The notes under the pieces are model-generated. The model searched no databases, was not told the DNA's origin, and was given only the letters and a program-made list of their open reading frames with translations. From Candidatus Peribacteraceae bacterium (lineage in GTDB: Bacteria; Patescibacteriota; Gracilibacteria; Peribacterales; Peribacteraceae): a stretch of DNA of 38,176 bases. A program made the translations under genes and the position numbers. Position 1 is the first letter of the stretch, and each line of letters opens with the position of its first letter. Below are positions 30,121-38,176 of the stretch, piece by piece. The DNA lies in contig JAQTSD010000009.1 of assembly GCA_028711445.1 (NCBI GenBank), positions 1 to 38,176 of the forward strand, given 5' to 3'.

Positions 30121-30196
<76 letters not shown>

Positions 30197-30311: not shown

Positions 30312-32036
30312 ATGTCTCCGCACATCGGCTCCGGCATGGGGATGCGCTTGGAGGAGAGAATGGATACAAGAATGGAAGAGAGAATGGAGATGCAGCAGAT
30401 CCCCCAGCTGAGCCCGAACATTCGGCGCCCGCCGGGAAACCGTTTCCGACGGGAACGCATCCGGCACTTCACCACGCAGCGCCTGCAGGCGCTCCTGCGT
30501 CGCGGAGCGGACGAAATCACCGTGGACAAGGCACTGGCGACATTCCTCCAGAGGATCGAGAGAATCATGCCGTTCGATGATTACTTCTTCGATCCGGAAG
30601 CGCACGCGCGATTCCTCCGCGGCGAGATCCCGGATGCCGTGTACCTCAATCATGCGTCCATCGGTACCCCATGCGCCGCGGCAGTGGAGAAGGGCCGGCA
30701 CGCTCTCACGATCGAGCAGCAACTGCTGCGCGAGGGCGATCCGGGGCTCGCGCAGGCGCTGAGCGTGGAGCTGGCGCGCAAGCTCCGGGAGAAGCTCGCC
30801 GTGATGCTCAAAGTCGATCCATCGGGCATCATCCTCACGCGCAACATCGGAGAAGCCGCCGTCATGGCCGCCGCCCTCGCGGGTGTGTACTCACGGAGGA
30901 GCGATGAGGGGCCGGTCGCATTCGCCGACCCGACGCACATCTCCACGATGGTGAACATGCTCCTCGTCAGCGATCCCGGCAACGTCTACGGCCGCGATCC
31001 TTTTAGCACGTTCCCCACCCATTTCCGGGAGCGTGGCCCGCAATACAAGGAAGATGAACTGCGGCGATGGCTCGGTCAGGATGCATTCACGATCTTCGCA
31101 ATCCGCGGAAAAACGCGGAAACAGATCCAGAAAGAGGTCATGACGCACGTGAAACCCTGCAATCCGAAAGCCATCGTGCTCCCGCACGTTCTGCGCGAAA
31201 CGGGAGATGAGCTCCCGATCGAGGAAATCGGACTGCATATGCAAGAACACCTCTGGCATGCATCCATCATCGCGGACGGAGCGCAGGCCGTAGGGAATAT
31301 CGACATCGATGCAGGCAAGCTCCTCGGTGTACATGCACCACGCCCAGCAGTGGATTTCTACTTGGGCGGCCTCCACAAGGCAATCGGAGCACCTCCCATG
31401 GGTTTCGTTGCATTCGATGAGCGGAGAGACACCGGCCACGAGGGTCTGGAACGACTGCGCTGTGGGTGGGCCAAAAACAATCTGCTGATCCTCCATGGCA
31501 TGTTCGACCATAGTCTCCACGTGCCGACGACCGTGGAGGACTCCCTCTCGACGGGCGATCTCTACGGCGCGCTCGCGCAACTTGAGCAGCTTGAGTGTGC
31601 CCGCCACATCTGTGACCTGAGAGACGGCCCGCGGATGAGCGTGTACTTCCTCATGCACGAGCGTTTCCGCCGCCGCGAGGCTTTCCAGAAACTTCTCGAA
31701 ACGCGCTTCGGAGAACGGTGGACGGGAAAGGATGCCCTGCAGTTCATCAAGCCGATCCATAAGGCGACATCCCTCATCCTCACGTTCCGATTCCCGACCG
31801 TGGACATGCGCACGCTCACCGAACGCCTCTCCAAGCAAGGAATCTTCCTCACCTACACCGAATCGTACGATGCCATTCGCGCCTCGTTCTCCCCGGACAA
31901 TAACGACGAGCAACTGCGTCACTGCGTCGAAGCGATGGCCCGGGAAGTGAAGCAAATGGAGAGAGAAGGTCCGACCGTTCGTGTTCAAGAGGAGGGCAGG
32001 CCACCGAAGAGCGGCAGCATTGACGAGTTGTCGTGA
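30312..32036 (+). CDS. PLP-dependent enzyme, aminotransferase class V-type (first of pair)
   Basis: A 574-residue cytosolic protein. About 110 N-terminal residues, Met/Arg/Glu-rich and then helical, precede a fold-type I PLP domain: VYLNHASIGTP (about 113-123, cf. IPN epimerase/cysteine desulfurase LNHGSFG), ILTRNIGEAAVMAA (cofactor phosphate site), IIADGAQAVGNIDID (Asp322, pyridine-nitrogen partner) and YLGGLHKAIGAPPMGFVAF (Lys356, Schiff-base lysine). So it should be catalytically competent; whether it is a desulfurase, lyase, epimerase or aminotransferase cannot be told. The N-terminal sequence before residue ~55 looks non-conserved, and later starts are possible, but the promoter fits 30312. 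A second PLP enzyme starts 61 bp downstream. Confidence 0.85.
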   Translation: MSPHIGSGMGMRLEERMDTRMEERMEMQQIPQLSPNIRRPPGNRFRRERIRHFTTQRLQALLRRGADEITVDKALATFLQRIERIMPFDDYFFDPEAHARFLRGEIPDAVYLNHASIGTPCAAAVEKGRHALTIEQQLLREGDPGLAQALSVELARKLREKLAVMLKVDPSGIILTRNIGEAAVMAAALAGVYSRRSDEGPVAFADPTHISTMVNMLLVSDPGNVYGRDPFSTFPTHFRERGPQYKEDELRRWLGQDAFTIFAIRGKTRKQIQKEVMTHVKPCNPKAIVLPHVLRETGDELPIEEIGLHMQEHLWHASIIADGAQAVGNIDIDAGKLLGVHAPRPAVDFYLGGLHKAIGAPPMGFVAFDERRDTGHEGLERLRCGWAKNNLLILHGMFDHSLHVPTTVEDSLSTGDLYGALAQLEQLECARHICDLRDGPRMSVYFLMHERFRRREAFQKLLETRFGERWTGKDALQFIKPIHKATSLILTFRFPTVDMRTLTERLSKQGIFLTYTESYDAIRASFSPDNNDEQLRHCVEAMAREVKQMEREGPTVRVQEEGRPPKSGSIDELS

Positions 32037-32097
32037 TGAGCGAATAATCACACACTTTCCATCTACTGTGGGGATTTCTCGCGCAACGCTCGGGTCC

Positions 32098-34884
32098 ATG
32101 GAGGACGCTCTCGCCCAAGCGTTCCTCGCTCACAGAGATTCTATCGAACCCAACACCCCATCACTCAAGGAACCCTTCGACCTCCTCTCGGAACTGCAGC
32201 GCACACGGAGCGCTCTTCAGGGATTGCTCCCATCAGCAGGAACCGACGAGGAGATCCCCCAAGAGCGTCTCGAAGCGGCGATCCACATGCTCGGACTCTC
32301 GGAGCAAACAATCCAGGAGGTCTCGAACGCATGCCGCACGCACTGCGGAGCGACGCTGCGCCTCACGGAGGCGGACGCGCGCACGTTCGACCAGCAGCGG
32401 GGACGACAGACGATCCGCGACCTCTACGAGGGGGACCCGTGGGCGATGGACGGTGCCAAATTCCTCGAAGAAATGTTCTCTAGGAATGAAAGATGGGCAC
32501 GGCTAAGGAAACCGGACCGCCCGCAGATCGCCCGACTGGAACACATGGTGACCGAGACGTTCGGCGAGCAGTACGGCCCCTTGGTCTACGTGCTCTTCAA
32601 CTTCATGGATCAGGACATGCCGCAGCTTGCAGCCCTCACCGAAACGCAATGCCGATTCCACAGTGCCTCCGTAAGCGCTGCAGAACCACGAAGCATCACC
32701 GAATCATCCGCACAGCAGGCTGCGGCAATCTTCAGGGAACGGTGGCAGAACCCCGCCGTGTGCACGGACGCTCCGGATCCTCCACACTTCTTCGAGCATC
32801 TAGGGCATTTTCTCCGCGTCTTCGGGGACGTGAGCGCCTACGTCATCGAACACACAGAAGAAACCATGTACGGCCGCTATGGGGGAAGATTCCCCCACTC
32901 CGTGCAAGAAGCCGAGCGACGATCGCTCGGAGCCCTCAAGAAAGTACTTTCCCATCCCGTTCTCCAGACGAACGCGGCGGCATCCGTGGATCTCCTCGAG
33001 ACGCTCGCGGCGGAGTGCCGCAAGGATCCGACGAGCCACCCGTGGCTCTTCTGGGGCAATCTCCATGCCACCCCCCTCTCCATGGCATTTGTGGATGACC
33101 TCCTCTCGCTCGAGATGCCGCGCTCCGTCCTCGCGGAAACGTGCGTCGCCCTCAACACTCTCACGACCAGCCCACATATCCCCGATGAAGTGGCTGTGCG
33201 CATCCTCGACCCCGTGAAGCTGCTCACCGACCCGGAGATGACGCATTACGCCGACCGGCTCTTCGCACGTCTCCAGCATCTACCGAAGAAGAATGAGCAG
33301 GAGACGTGGCGGCAACCCGTCCTGCGCCGCTCGCTGCAGATCGCGCTCCACCGTGATGATCCCTCCCGCCTCCTCGACATGCCCCTGCAAAGCGGACGGT
33401 ACCGCGATTGGACGATCCGGGACCTCCTCATGCGCGCGTGCTTCGCCCGTTTCCCGGATGCCCAGATCATCCTCGATGAGGAGATCGTCCTCAAAGGAGA
33501 GCCTCCTGACCGTCGGACACTCTTTCCCCTCGTGGAACCGCTGCGGATGCACACACCTCCCACCCAGCATCGCCTCAATTTCAACTCCGCGGGCGTGGGG
33601 ACGGTGCGTGACCACTTCACGGAAGCCGCCTCCAAAGCCCTCTCCCTCCAGAGGGGCACGCGCCGCTTCGAGTGGGCTATCAGTTACACCCAACGCGCGC
33701 TCGATACCTACTACGCCACCGGGAGGAACTACGAGTACTTCCTCTTCGGTTCCGCGACCACCGCCTTCGAGTGGTTCCTCCTCCAGCAATTCCCACACCT
33801 ACGTGAAGGAAACAACATCGTCATGACCAATCAGGAGTACGATCTCCTCCCGCGGTACTTTCTGGAACGTTGCGGCGAGACAGGAGTCCGACCCGTTGCG
33901 CTGCGACACCCCTCAGAGGAGCGCCTGCGGACCGACGAGGAACTCCTCGCGGCCATCGAGGAAGTCATGGATCCGCAGACGCTCATGGTCCTCATCAGCA
34001 GTAAGACGCGGTACGGCGATGCCCCCTGTTCACGACCGCGGGGAGACAGGCCGAACACCTACTACCTCCAGCGTCTCATTGCCAAACTCAAAGAGCGGCA
34101 CCCAACCACCCTCGTCACCCTCGACGGAGCCCAGTCGATCGGGAGGGCGGTGCCGGAGTACCAACTCCTCGGAGCCGACCTCTTCCTCGGCAGCAGCGCG
34201 AAGGCGCTCGGCACGGGCGAGGCGGGCTTCATCGCACTGCGCAATGAACTCGCGGCGAGCGTGGGGTACCAACCTTCCATGCTCCCCCTCGACCACATCG
34301 TCGCCATGGGCATGGCCCTGAACAACCATGACGCGCCACGGCACGACCTGCGGCGGATGGAGGGCAATGTCGGAGAGCAGGGAAAACATGAGGGGTGGTA
34401 CAACATCGCGCGGCGCATGCGCCACCTCACGATGTGCGCGCTCCAGCAGGCAAAAGACTACGGTCAAAACGTCCTCCAATTATTGCAAAACAACGACGCA
34501 CACGGTCTCAAGAAACGCCTGCGAGAGACCGAGGCGCGTCTGGGAGAAGCGGGCCTCAAGCGTCTGTTCGGCTGCGAGGTACTCTCCCCCTACCACTGCA
34601 ATCAGCGGGATCTCGCGGGCATCCTCACGCTCCTCTCTCCGAACGTCAAAGGCGAGCAGATGGCCCAGGACCTCGCACGCTGGTACCCCGGCACCCAAGT
34701 CCTCCCCTGCCGCAACCGCAACCGCGCTCTGCGTATCTCCTTCGACTACTGCCACTCGGCGGAGGATGTCGAAGAGCTCTTCGAGGCCATGGCCGAGACG
34801 CACTGCTGCATCGCGGCGCAGGCCGTTCTGGACGGGAAACCCTGGCGCGAGGTGTATGATCTCAACGCCCCCCCAACCTCATGA
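32098..34884 (+). CDS. Large PLP-dependent enzyme with an unknown ~490-residue N-terminal region
   Basis: 928 residues from ATG 32098; the frame upstream overlaps the previous gene and is not used. Residues ~491-900 are a class V-type PLP domain: HRLNFNSAGVGTV (cf. LNxxSxG in the preceding protein), FLFGSATTAFEW, VLISSKTRYGDAP, VTLDGAQSIGR (Asp676) and LGSSAKALGTGEAGFIAL (Lys702, Schiff-base lysine). Residues 1-490 are mostly helical and were not recognised; they contain ETMYGRYGGRFPHS and many charged helices, perhaps a repeat scaffold or partner-binding part. Its stop overlaps the next gene's start by 4 bp (ATGA), so the regulator is translationally coupled. Function is unknown. Confidence 0.85.
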   Translation: MEDALAQAFLAHRDSIEPNTPSLKEPFDLLSELQRTRSALQGLLPSAGTDEEIPQERLEAAIHMLGLSEQTIQEVSNACRTHCGATLRLTEADARTFDQQRGRQTIRDLYEGDPWAMDGAKFLEEMFSRNERWARLRKPDRPQIARLEHMVTETFGEQYGPLVYVLFNFMDQDMPQLAALTETQCRFHSASVSAAEPRSITESSAQQAAAIFRERWQNPAVCTDAPDPPHFFEHLGHFLRVFGDVSAYVIEHTEETMYGRYGGRFPHSVQEAERRSLGALKKVLSHPVLQTNAAASVDLLETLAAECRKDPTSHPWLFWGNLHATPLSMAFVDDLLSLEMPRSVLAETCVALNTLTTSPHIPDEVAVRILDPVKLLTDPEMTHYADRLFARLQHLPKKNEQETWRQPVLRRSLQIALHRDDPSRLLDMPLQSGRYRDWTIRDLLMRACFARFPDAQIILDEEIVLKGEPPDRRTLFPLVEPLRMHTPPTQHRLNFNSAGVGTVRDHFTEAASKALSLQRGTRRFEWAISYTQRALDTYYATGRNYEYFLFGSATTAFEWFLLQQFPHLREGNNIVMTNQEYDLLPRYFLERCGETGVRPVALRHPSEERLRTDEELLAAIEEVMDPQTLMVLISSKTRYGDAPCSRPRGDRPNTYYLQRLIAKLKERHPTTLVTLDGAQSIGRAVPEYQLLGADLFLGSSAKALGTGEAGFIALRNELAASVGYQPSMLPLDHIVAMGMALNNHDAPRHDLRRMEGNVGEQGKHEGWYNIARRMRHLTMCALQQAKDYGQNVLQLLQNNDAHGLKKRLRETEARLGEAGLKRLFGCEVLSPYHCNQRDLAGILTLLSPNVKGEQMAQDLARWYPGTQVLPCRNRNRALRISFDYCHSAEDVEELFEAMAETHCCIAAQAVLDGKPWREVYDLNAPPTS

Positions 34885-35693
34885 ACGCACCTTCCCCGCA
34901 GAAACTCTTGGGCGTTCTCGAGAAGATCGGACTCACCGTCTGCGAAGCCAAGGTGTACCTAAGCTGCCTGAAGCTCGGCGTGCAGGCGGCCGACGTCATC
35001 GCCACGGATGCCGGCCTCTCCTCGGCCGATGCAGCCACCATCCTCGAGCGGCTCCACGACCGGGGTTTCTTGAGTCGCTTCGCGACCAACCGCGACTTCT
35101 TCTGTGCGGAGCCACCCGAGGTGCTCATCCGCCTCCTCGAGAGCCGCGAGTTCGAGCAACGGCAAGGCATCGAGGAATTCCGCACGTGCCTGCCCCTCTT
35201 CGCGGAATTCGCCAACCCCGCATTCACGAAGCCGGAAATCGCCTTCTACAACGGGAAGGAGGGGGTCATCGCCGCCTACGAAGATACGCTCACGTCGAAG
35301 ACGGACATCCTCGCCATCACCTCCATCGACGACACGGAGTCGGTACTGCCCGAGTACGTCCCGCGCTACTACCTCCGCCGGAAGGCAGCGGGCATCCTCA
35401 TTCGCGCCATCTTCCCGGACACGCCGATGTCCCGCTCTCGACAGGCGAGAGATGCAGAAGAACTGCGCGAGAGCCGGCTCGTCCCCCGCTCCTTCCTCGA
35501 AGGCTTCCACCTCGAGTACTACATCTACGACGACAAAGTCGCCTACTTCTCCATTGTGGAGGGGATTGCCGTCATCGTGAAAAGCTCCTTCATCGCCCAG
35601 GGGATGCGCACCGTGTTTTCCATGCTCTGGCAACTCGCGCCGGGCGGAGCACCTTACGACGCGAGCGCCTCCCGCCGGACAGACTGCTTGTAG
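34881..35693 (+). CDS. TrmB-family transcriptional regulator
   Basis: A 270-residue protein. The N-terminal winged helix (about 8-80) has LEKIGLTVCEAKVYLSCLKLGVQAADVIATDAGLSSADAATILERLHDRGFL, the TrmB pattern. The C-terminal half (about 110-255) resembles the phospholipase-D-like ligand-sensing part of TrmB-type proteins (IAFYNGKEGVIAAYEDTL, YYLRRKAAGILIRAIFPDT, YYIYDDKVAYFSI, VIVKSSFIAQGMRTVFSMLW). It is coupled by a 4-bp overlap to the large PLP enzyme and probably controls this operon in response to a small ligand. TrmB-type regulators are best known from archaea and occur also in CPR genomes. The last 40 bp overlap the convergent rel-like gene. Confidence 0.85.
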   Translation: MNAPSPQKLLGVLEKIGLTVCEAKVYLSCLKLGVQAADVIATDAGLSSADAATILERLHDRGFLSRFATNRDFFCAEPPEVLIRLLESREFEQRQGIEEFRTCLPLFAEFANPAFTKPEIAFYNGKEGVIAAYEDTLTSKTDILAITSIDDTESVLPEYVPRYYLRRKAAGILIRAIFPDTPMSRSRQARDAEELRESRLVPRSFLEGFHLEYYIYDDKVAYFSIVEGIAVIVKSSFIAQGMRTVFSMLWQLAPGGAPYDASASRRTDCL

Positions 35694-36610
35694 ATTGCAT
35701 GGGAAGCGAGGCCGAATCTCGCCACCTCGTTCATTTCCTCTGTACGAATTTGAAATTCAACCGCCTGGCCCTCGAGGCAGCGAACAGTCGTATGAATGCT
35801 CCGGTAGCCGTTCGCCTTCGAGGCGAGGATGTAATCTTTGAAGCGCTCGGGAAAGGGGCGCCAGGTGCGGTGGAGAATCTCCAGGGCGCGGTAACAATCA
35901 TCCACACTGCACACGATGATCCGGAACCCGAAGAGATCCGTGATGTGATTGAGCGTTTGCCCCTTGCGCTGCATTTTCTGATAGACGCCGCCGACGTTCT
36001 TCTTGCGGCAGGAGAGGCGGAAATCCCGCAATCCTCCTGCTTCAAGTCGATGAGTGAGAATGGCACTGATATCCGCGAAAAGCCGCTCGTGGATGTGACC
36101 TTGTCGTTCGAGAAGCGAGGAAACGAGTCGGTAGTCCTGGGGGTGCCGAGCTTCGAAGAGACAGTCTTCGAGGAGGTAGCGCAGTTTCCAAAGTCCGAGG
36201 TGATCTGCCAGAGAGATCCAAAGGACCGAAACTTCCTCATCCGAGAGACGAAAACGCAAGGAGACAATCCCCTCGAGGAGAATGAGCGTGACGAGATCTG
36301 CCAGCGCATCTTGCGAGCGCTCAACGTCCTTGAGGAGACGTAGAGCGGAGACGTCACTCCCCTGCCGCAGCACCTCGACCTTGAGTGCCACTGCATCCTC
36401 CCCAACGACGGCTTGCAATGCAGATGAACGCTCCATGAGGAGAGCAGCATCGGATGGCAAGAAGAAGGCGCGAAGGACGATGTCCGAGACGCGAAGATCC
36501 TCCACGGTCGGACGCATCTCTGCACGAAGAGAGAGGTCGCTATTCCTCACATCGCCAAGCACCTCGCTGATGCGTTGCAGGAGATCCTCCGAAAATTGCT
36601 TGGTCCCCAT
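35654..36610 (-). CDS. rel: Short RelA/SpoT-type (p)ppGpp synthetase with degenerate N-terminal half
   Basis: 318 residues from ATG 36610, versus 700 or more for long RSH proteins. The synthetase domain is at about 190-315: LSCRKKNVGGVYQKMQRKG (cf. RxKxxxSIxxKM), LFGFRIIVCSVDDCYRALEILH, FKDYILASKANGYRSIHTTV, VEFQIRTEEMNEVARFGLASHAIYK. The region before it (LADHLGLWKLRYLLEDCLFEARHPQDY) is the conserved linker, but the HD hydrolase motifs are missing, and TGS and ACT domains are absent. It probably makes (p)ppGpp without degrading it. A promoter TTGACA-N16-CACAAT overlaps the upstream ATG at 36622, which is why I choose 36610. The 3' end overlaps the TrmB gene by 40 bp. Confidence 0.9.
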   Translation of the reverse strand: MGTKQFSEDLLQRISEVLGDVRNSDLSLRAEMRPTVEDLRVSDIVLRAFFLPSDAALLMERSSALQAVVGEDAVALKVEVLRQGSDVSALRLLKDVERSQDALADLVTLILLEGIVSLRFRLSDEEVSVLWISLADHLGLWKLRYLLEDCLFEARHPQDYRLVSSLLERQGHIHERLFADISAILTHRLEAGGLRDFRLSCRKKNVGGVYQKMQRKGQTLNHITDLFGFRIIVCSVDDCYRALEILHRTWRPFPERFKDYILASKANGYRSIHTTVRCLEGQAVEFQIRTEEMNEVARFGLASHAIYKQSVRREALAS

Positions 36611-36620
36611 AGGTATTTGC

Positions 36621-36648
36621 ATTGTGCCTTTGGAGAATCAGGTGTCAA
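36621..36648 (-). promoter_or_regulatory. Promoter of the rel-like gene
   Basis: TTGACA (36643-36648, minus strand), a 16-bp spacer and CACAAT (36621-36626). The ATG at 36610 is 10 nt downstream of the -10 box; the alternative ATG at 36622 would lie inside it. Confidence 0.6.
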
Positions 36649-36870: not shown

Positions 36871-38176
36871 ATGAGCGCTAAGAAGTTTTTGGCTTCTACA
36901 AGCCTCTTCTGCCTTTTTATCAGCCAGGCTCAGATCACGCTGGTCGAGCCGTTCTTCGGTGCTGAAGCCGCTCTGGCTCAAGAAGCCACCGACGGCGGAT
37001 CCGAATCCTCGGCAGCCGCGGAAACGGTGGACGTACCCAGTGCATCTTCACAGAGCGGGAAAGTGAGCGCTTCGTGCTTCCCTCCGACGGGAAATTTCCC
37101 CATGTCCTTCACATGGCAAATCATCTGCGGAGAAGCGGGAACGAACCGTAACCTCGCTTGCGAGGAAGCATGCGAGCCCTGCATCAGCGATACGTACTAC
37201 TTCTGGCGTAAGTTCCTGCTCAAGGAAATGGGGTACTTCTACTTCAACGGATCTGGACAGCGCGTCACCGTCCCGTTCGCTACAGGAAGCAACATCTGCC
37301 GTGATGGCGTGTCACCGACAAGCGGAGCCGGTACTGTTCCAGCCGGCATCACGGCTGTGGGCACGTATACCACCTGGCAGATCAACGAATACACGAGCCG
37401 CTATACGCTGTACTCGGATCTCGGTCACTCCGCGATCGTCTGCTCCCGCGGGAACGGCCGCACGGACTACTACTGGGACGATGGTGGCAATCCGGGAACG
37501 CACAATGACGGTCGCGTGATCATCAATGCCCAAGTCCCCGCTCAGTGCGGAGACGGCATCGACAACGACGGAGACGGAGCCACGGATTATCCGAATGATT
37601 ACAGCTGCTCCTCAGCGACGGACAATGATGAGACGAATCCCAAGAGCCAGTGTCAGGATGGGATGGATAACGACGGCAACGGTTACACGGATTACCCGTC
37701 CGATACCGGATGCACGAGTAAGCAGGACAACACGGAATCCGGAGGACAGGCCAAGCCGCAGTGCTCCGACGGAGTGGACAACGACGGAGACGGAGCCACG
37801 GATTATCCGAATGATTACAGCTGCTCCTCAGCGACGGACAATGATGAGACGAATCCCAAGAGCCAGTGTCAGGATGGGATGGATAACGACGGCAACGGTT
37901 ACACGGATTACCCGTCCGATACCGGATGCACGAGTAAGCAGGACAACACGGAATCCGGAGGACAGGCCAAGCCGCAGTGCTCCGACGGAGTGGACAACGA
38001 CGGAGACGGAGCCACGGATTATCCGAATGATTACAGCTGCTCCTCAGCGACGGACAATGATGAGACGAATCCCAAGAGCCAGTGTCAGGATGGGATGGAT
38101 AACGACGGGGATACCCTGATCGACTACCCGGCGGATCCTGGTTGTTCAGATAAGCAGGACAACAACGAACGCAACA
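36871..38176 (+). CDS. Secreted surface protein with Cys/DNDGDG repeats, partial at the window edge
   Basis: The frame opens at ATG 36871 and is still open at the end (435 codons). A signal peptide covers about 1-36 (LFCLFISQA, cleavage near ALA-Q). Residues ~40-220 form a Cys-containing domain of unknown fold (SCFPPTGNFP, CEEACEPC, WRKFLLKEMGYFYFNGSG). From residue 225 follow repeats of about 36 residues, QC-x-DG-x-DNDG-(D/N)G, DYP, GC, DN-x-E, each with two Cys and Asp/Asn/Gly loops suited to calcium binding. Such repeats are common in CPR surface proteins. Two alternating versions form a 72-residue unit copied exactly. The full length and any C-terminal anchor lie outside the window. Confidence 0.9.
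   Translation, partial: MSAKKFLASTSLFCLFISQAQITLVEPFFGAEAALAQEATDGGSESSAAAETVDVPSASSQSGKVSASCFPPTGNFPMSFTWQIICGEAGTNRNLACEEACEPCISDTYYFWRKFLLKEMGYFYFNGSGQRVTVPFATGSNICRDGVSPTSGAGTVPAGITAVGTYTTWQINEYTSRYTLYSDLGHSAIVCSRGNGRTDYYWDDGGNPGTHNDGRVIINAQVPAQCGDGIDNDGDGATDYPNDYSCSSATDNDETNPKSQCQDGMDNDGNGYTDYPSDTGCTSKQDNTESGGQAKPQCSDGVDNDGDGATDYPNDYSCSSATDNDETNPKSQCQDGMDNDGNGYTDYPSDTGCTSKQDNTESGGQAKPQCSDGVDNDGDGATDYPNDYSCSSATDNDETNPKSQCQDGMDNDGDTLIDYPADPGCSDKQDNNERN
37561..38108 (+). repeat. Perfect 216-bp tandem repeat within the surface protein gene
   Basis: A unit of 216 bp (72 codons) starts at 37561, 37777 and 37993. The first two copies are identical base for base; the third is identical for 116 bp, to 38108, then departs. 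Identity at synonymous sites shows recent duplication or gene conversion. Each unit encodes two related ~36-residue calcium-binding-like modules. Confidence 0.95.

Follow-up and report, generated by a model that had tools for sequence, protein, structure and literature searches.

In the 38,176-nucleotide stretch of DNA that we analysed (the window, which belongs to contig C14 of a CPR bacterium, Candidatus Peribacteraceae, with a genome of 1.25 Mb that is 99.7% complete), two neighbouring genes encode PLP proteins of the class V type, here called PLP1 and PLP2, and are followed by a gene for a TrmB-type regulator. Comparison with related genomes revealed that the regulator goes with PLP2 and not with PLP1, and that the conserved unit is PLP2 plus TrmB rather than the two enzymes. 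We give about an even chance to the explanation that the core of the locus is an active, divergent PLP2 enzyme with its dedicated TrmB, that PLP2 acts on a free and probably sulfur-containing amino acid and that PLP1 was recruited later.

The features of the locus are listed in Table 1. A sequence-only reading of this DNA had described fold-type I hallmarks in both enzyme genes and a 4-bp overlap between the regulator gene and PLP2; we found the former exactly as claimed (D322/K356 and D676/K702) and the latter at positions 34881-34884. The LN-x-x-S-x-G strings that it saw in both proteins are real (residues 112-118 of PLP1 and 493-499 of PLP2), but an alignment of the motifs points to N496 as the probable structural equivalent of this Asn in PLP2. 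The PLP2 reading frame opens at GTG 31981 and ATG 32098 was provisionally taken as its start; the in-frame sequence upstream of this ATG is conserved between the window and the related genome G007 (IITHFP.../IISYFP...). All three genes are under purifying selection, with dN/dS values between the two closest genomes of 0.26 for PLP1, 0.22 for PLP2 and 0.12 for TrmB. Between these same genomes, dS is 0.05-0.2 across the PLP1/PLP2 junction (window 31752-32640, covering ~90 codons at the end of PLP1 and ~180 at the start of PLP2) versus 0.4-0.8 nearby, which suggests recombination or an extra constraint at the DNA level; the weak promoter match ahead of PLP2 falls inside this tract.

Table 1. Genes, domains and key residues of the locus, in window coordinates.
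Feature	Position	Strand	Description
PLP1	30312..32036	+	divergent class V (Aminotran_5) fold-type I PLP protein, 574 aa, with N-terminal extension of ~105 aa
PLP1 D322 of DGAQ (pyridine-N Asp)	31275..31277	+	invariant in 4 PLP1-family members
PLP1 K356 of HK (Schiff-base Lys)	31377..31379	+	invariant in 4 PLP1-family members
Sigma-70-like promoter match	32020..32048	+	just ahead of PLP2, overlapping the end of PLP1; weak (2 found versus 1.3 expected by chance)
PLP2	32098..34884	+	928 aa; N-terminal domain of ~480 aa and C-terminal class V PLP domain
PLP2 N-terminal domain, residues 1-474	32098..33519	+	common to the long PLP2 subgroup only
PLP2 D676	34123..34125	+	invariant in 14 relatives
PLP2 K702, Schiff-base Lys	34201..34203	+	invariant in 14 relatives
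PLP2 C871	34708..34710	+	8 residues ahead of R879; invariant in 7 long PLP2 proteins
PLP2 R879, substrate-carboxylate Arg position	34732..34734	+	invariant in 14 relatives
TrmB-type HTH regulator	34881..35693	+	270 aa; shares 34881-34884 (4 bp) with PLP2
Truncated RelA/SpoT-like protein	35654..36622	-	(p)ppGpp synthetase region without HD domain; tail-to-tail with TrmB

Several origins and roles were considered and rejected for the locus as a whole. Its GC content (0.585-0.636) matches that of the preceding 12 kb, and by composition it is not a horizontal island; no relatives of PLP1 or PLP2 were found in viral contigs or plasmids, and none of PLP2 in phages, which argues against a viral, phage or plasmid origin. 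A defence system was discarded as well, PADLOC having returned no more than generic class V models (SspA/DndA, E 1e-4), the RelA-like candidate PDC-S33 and a chance match to Cas11e. Around the operon, a tRNA-Gln gene (TTG; window 30121-30195, minus strand) lies directly upstream and is kept in the related genome G001, where the genes farther upstream differ from those of the window, and window 36871-38175 encodes a probable secreted protein with repeated D-x-D-N-D-G-D calcium-binding-like motifs that runs off the window end.

Single-sequence searches detected close relatives of PLP2 in the same three Peribacteraceae genomes as PLP1 only (window, G001 and G007). This picture of an orphan pair limited to three genomes was overturned by the neighbours of TrmB together with a wider PLP2 profile. 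The best relatives of the window's TrmB outside the three genomes, which belong to family f9, face a PLP2-like class V gene in convergent orientation, and these class V genes gave a profile match to PLP2 with E 4.6e-7 versus only 3.2e-4 to PLP1. When they were added to build the wider profile, PLP2 relatives were recovered in 15 genomes out of the 353 of the class, belonging to families f1, f6, f9, f17 and f20. The family is sharply delimited: in a sample of the phylum, its members scored 568 bits or more and no other match exceeded 65 bits, the matches below that gap being almost entirely ordinary desulfurase-like genes of ~400 aa; with few exceptions, only such ordinary genes were found outside the class, where 380 genomes of the phylum were sampled. 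PLP2 family proteins are 550-1140 aa long, and the 14 that we aligned are 14-87% identical to the window's PLP2, most of them 14-28%.

The regulator follows this family closely. At all 14 PLP2 loci with a visible 3' side, from families f1, f6, f9 and f17 (the contig breaks off at the fifteenth, in G664), TrmB directly adjoins PLP2 (11 loci) or is separated from it by one gene (3 loci; a methyltransferase gene in two and a DUF4116 gene in one), showing that the regulator is truly coupled to the locus, as the sequence-only reading had supposed, although linkage alone is no proof of regulation. No TrmB gene was found at 14 ordinary class V loci (15 control stretches, 14 of them with a class V gene, some with flanks of 1-1.5 kb), and a Fisher test of 13 linked versus 15 unlinked gave a p value of 2.7e-8, which is not a strict probability because the genomes are related. 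In a tree, the TrmBs linked to the long form of PLP2 described below make up one clade (support 100/99); those linked to the short form group together with weaker support, and unlinked TrmBs fall between the two sets. In f9 and f17, TrmB is mostly convergent with PLP2 and hence not co-transcribed with it. The intervening methyltransferase genes lie in G688 (L077:4975-5766) and G682 (L079:1675-2529), and G683 (L078:26-1674) carries two tandem overlapping TrmB genes that are convergent with one PLP2-family gene.

The window's TrmB matches the PF01978 HTH domain at 39.6 bits (cut-off 25.6, E 4.9e-10), which it has in common with the N-terminal HTH of TrmB/TrmBL1 of the Thermococcales. The effector-binding domain named for the TrmB family is PF11495 (PMC4158304). 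Unlike in TrmB/TrmBL1, this sugar/effector-binding domain was absent from the Pfam matches of the window's TrmB, and the gene is linked to a PLP enzyme where TrmB/TrmBL1 go with sugar transport genes.

These distributions bear on the proposal, made from the sequence alone, that PLP1 and PLP2 are an obligate two-enzyme pathway or heteromer with TrmB as a feedback regulator. That single-protein searches place both enzymes in exactly the same three genomes, as neighbours in each, speaks for it. However, PLP2 plus TrmB occurs without PLP1 in at least 11 genomes from four families (G102, G676, G693, G064, G075, G093, G688, G683, G682, G684 and G077), PLP1 diverges much faster than PLP2 (32% versus 68% identity to G007) and a distant PLP1 relative, in G248, has no PLP2 beside it. 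The obligate pair is thus not supported, and we regard such a pathway as unlikely. The co-occurrence on which the proposal was to be checked holds for PLP1, which adjoins PLP2 in all three genomes that have it (in divergent orientation in G007), while PLP2 plus TrmB is distributed more widely; given this adjacency, the two enzymes may be functionally linked locally, and TrmB may act by feedback.

PLP1 itself was found in three genomes from two genera of Peribacteraceae among the 96 relatives and 74 family genomes searched, the orthologues of G001 and G007 being 82% and 32% identical to the window's. It scores above the Pfam cut-off for Aminotran_5 (PF00266; 28.6 bits versus 21.5, E 8.9e-7), and a profile of the three orthologues matched, as its best solved structure, the cysteine/cystine C-S lyase C-DES of Synechocystis (PDB 1elq, E 3.7e-13, three colinear stretches; also 1n2t). 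The likeness extends along the whole PLP fold, including the HVxRxTG/DGAQ and C-terminal Arg regions, and neither protein has a mobile loop with a catalytic Cys: in a comparison of four family members, PLP1 has no Cys ahead of the C-terminal Arg on an extended loop. Features that set PLP1 apart from C-DES are its N-terminal extension, a GMFD motif and the insertion of a D-G-N..D..S..PT..RG..Y motif. The start of the extension (window 30312-30420) is rich in R, M, E and Q (MRLEERMDTRMEERMEMQQI) and is kept in G001 and G007 ahead of the PLP fold.

The fourth family member, from G248 in another class of the phylum (133 bits, 26% identity), forms the C-terminal part of a protein of 1007 aa that also contains a B12-binding and a radical-SAM domain (L046:123-3143, minus strand); neither PLP2 nor TrmB neighbours it at its locus, and we found no described match to this fusion of B12-binding, radical-SAM and PLP1-type parts. 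The PLP residues, an unusual Arg in H-V-x-R-x-T-G, the inserted D-G-N...PT...RG...Y motif and GMFD are common to the four members and mark PLP1 as a distinct subfamily, which can exist without a PLP2 or TrmB neighbour.

PLP2 is more divergent with respect to known families: its match to Aminotran_5 (E 4e-4, 20.0 bits) falls just below the cut-off of 21.5, its relatives scoring 20.5-31.4 bits. A profile of its C-terminal half that included 14 relatives matched cysteine desulfurase structures with E 2.4e-11, the best being of the SufS type (e.g. PDB 5xt5 and 8ztp). Among the 12 invariant columns of the 14 aligned proteins are E580, S634, R638, G640, D676, Q679, R683, K702 and R879, and the Schiff-base Lys, the pyridine-N Asp and the carboxylate Arg are invariant in the four PLP1-family and the 14 PLP2-family proteins alike. 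By analogy with class V structures, a functional PLP enzyme whose substrate has a free carboxylate would be expected to show this set; considering that the catalytic residues are invariant across the 14 proteins, PLP2 is probably an active enzyme. No subfamily of NCBIfam or Pfam that names a reaction matched PLP1 or PLP2, and neither isopenicillin N epimerase nor kynureninase was among the structure or NCBIfam matches listed. AlphaFold models from three-sequence alignments were of too low confidence to be of use (pLDDT 36.1 for PLP2 and 39.4 for PLP1).

An enzyme is not the only role that one could imagine for such a protein. The near-constant pairing of PLP2 with TrmB in four families and the large extra N-terminal domain of PLP2, without known relatives, would also suit a protein that is mainly a sensor, as in a MocR/GabR-like system split in two, with amino-acid detection left to the PLP fold and DNA binding to a separate TrmB. 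MocR/GabR proteins likewise pair an HTH regulator with a fold-type I PLP domain, but MocR-type regulators are single chains with an aspartate-aminotransferase fold, while here two separate genes are involved (HTH and PLP fold are on separate genes at every locus seen), the fold is of class V rather than class I and the HTH is of a different type. Because none of the catalytic residues varies, the Arg for the substrate carboxylate included, we find a mainly sensory PLP2 improbable.

Another alternative is that PLP1 and PLP2 have an accessory role as cysteine desulfurases and provide sulfur for Fe-S clusters or tRNA thiolation. In line with this, profile comparison places SufS-type cysteine desulfurases and C-DES closest among the structures, PLP2 retains the PLP Asp, Lys and Arg of SufS, and C871 is conserved in the long form (it is invariant in seven long PLP2 proteins, absent from the short form and not on a SufS-like extended loop). 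Against it, the SufS-type Cys loop is absent and NCBIfam SufS/NifS models gave only 12-16 bits versus cut-offs of 475-531 (475 for SufS), confirming that neither enzyme is a canonical SufS/IscS. The locus has no SufU, IscU or thiolation gene either, as noted before, and a canonical SufS with its SufU is encoded elsewhere in the genome, on contig C10, a further class V gene also lying on a contig other than C14. PLP2 further differs from SufS by its extra domain of ~480 aa and by a family signature, EE[YF]...S-x-x-[TS]R-x-G...D-x-x-Q-[SA]-x-x-R. Altogether, we give a sulfur-supply role little credence. As a separate observation, G242 encodes a 1008-aa protein (L106:4004-7030, minus strand) with a SufS-like class V domain that does carry a Cys loop, a middle region and a methyltransferase-like C-terminus.

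PLP2 occurs in two forms. The long form (window, G001, G007, G102, G676, G693 and, as far as visible, G664) carries an N-terminal domain of at least ~480 aa that is homologous among its members, with 20-27% identity outside the close genera; a profile of this domain matched G102, G664, G676 and G693 with E 2.9e-17 to 3e-9, and we found no Pfam or PDB relative of it. In this form, TrmB is next on the same strand. In the short form (f9 and f17), TrmB is tail-to-tail with PLP2, the extension is usually shorter and no RelA/SpoT gene is beside PLP2.

Such a gene is present next to the long form: a truncated RelA/SpoT is tail-to-tail with TrmB in six genomes (window, G001, G007, G102, G676 and G693). 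The window's 322-aa protein matches PF04607 at 127.4 bits (cut-off 27, E 3.9e-37), and its synthetase region is well conserved (E 5.5e-36 to PDB 8acu, a solved RelA-type enzyme), as in long RSH proteins; unlike these, it has no match to an HD hydrolase domain and no C-terminal regulatory region, and its N-terminal part of ~120 aa gave no clear match. A strong short-form RelA/SpoT was found in none of the 13 PLP2-lacking genomes compared, and G077 has one that is far from its PLP2.

For the substrate, the reaction, the regulatory logic and the alarmone link of the locus, we infer a scheme in which PLP2, a very divergent and catalytically competent class V enzyme, would hold PLP through K702/D676 and bind a free amino acid through R879. 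Its chemistry would most likely be of the C-S lyase or desulfurase type, or another beta-elimination or an epimerisation, on a small and probably sulfur-containing amino acid; a sulfur-containing substrate is most likely in view of the solved structures that lie nearest, namely those of cysteine desulfurases and of the C-DES lyase. TrmB would control PLP2 transcription in response to a ligand tied to the PLP2 reaction, the tail-to-tail RelA/SpoT synthetase of the long form would add a link to alarmone signalling, and PLP1 would be a second class V enzyme recruited into the operon in two genera. Amino-acid biosynthesis is very limited in Peribacteria, and their proteins are rich in cysteine (PMC4736985), which fits the sulfur-amino-acid reading and does not prove it. 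There is a small chance that the locus goes further and is an as yet undescribed sensing module of symbiotic CPR bacteria, in which PLP2 reports a scavenged amino acid, possibly cysteine, to TrmB and the truncated (p)ppGpp synthetase.

Literature searches found no paper on a PLP2/TrmB/RelA-type system, and no described system with this gene set, in agreement with the sequence-only reading; the pattern of the locus suggests an undescribed way to sense or process an amino acid. Amino-acid-poor symbionts should need few amino-acid enzymes and regulators, and this lineage keeps PLP2 and its regulator, joined in the long form by an alarmone synthetase, across several families. If the function of the locus were solved, one would learn how scavenged amino acids are sensed or processed in cells that lack amino-acid biosynthesis; the N-terminal domain of PLP2 and a group of TrmB regulators would also gain a role.
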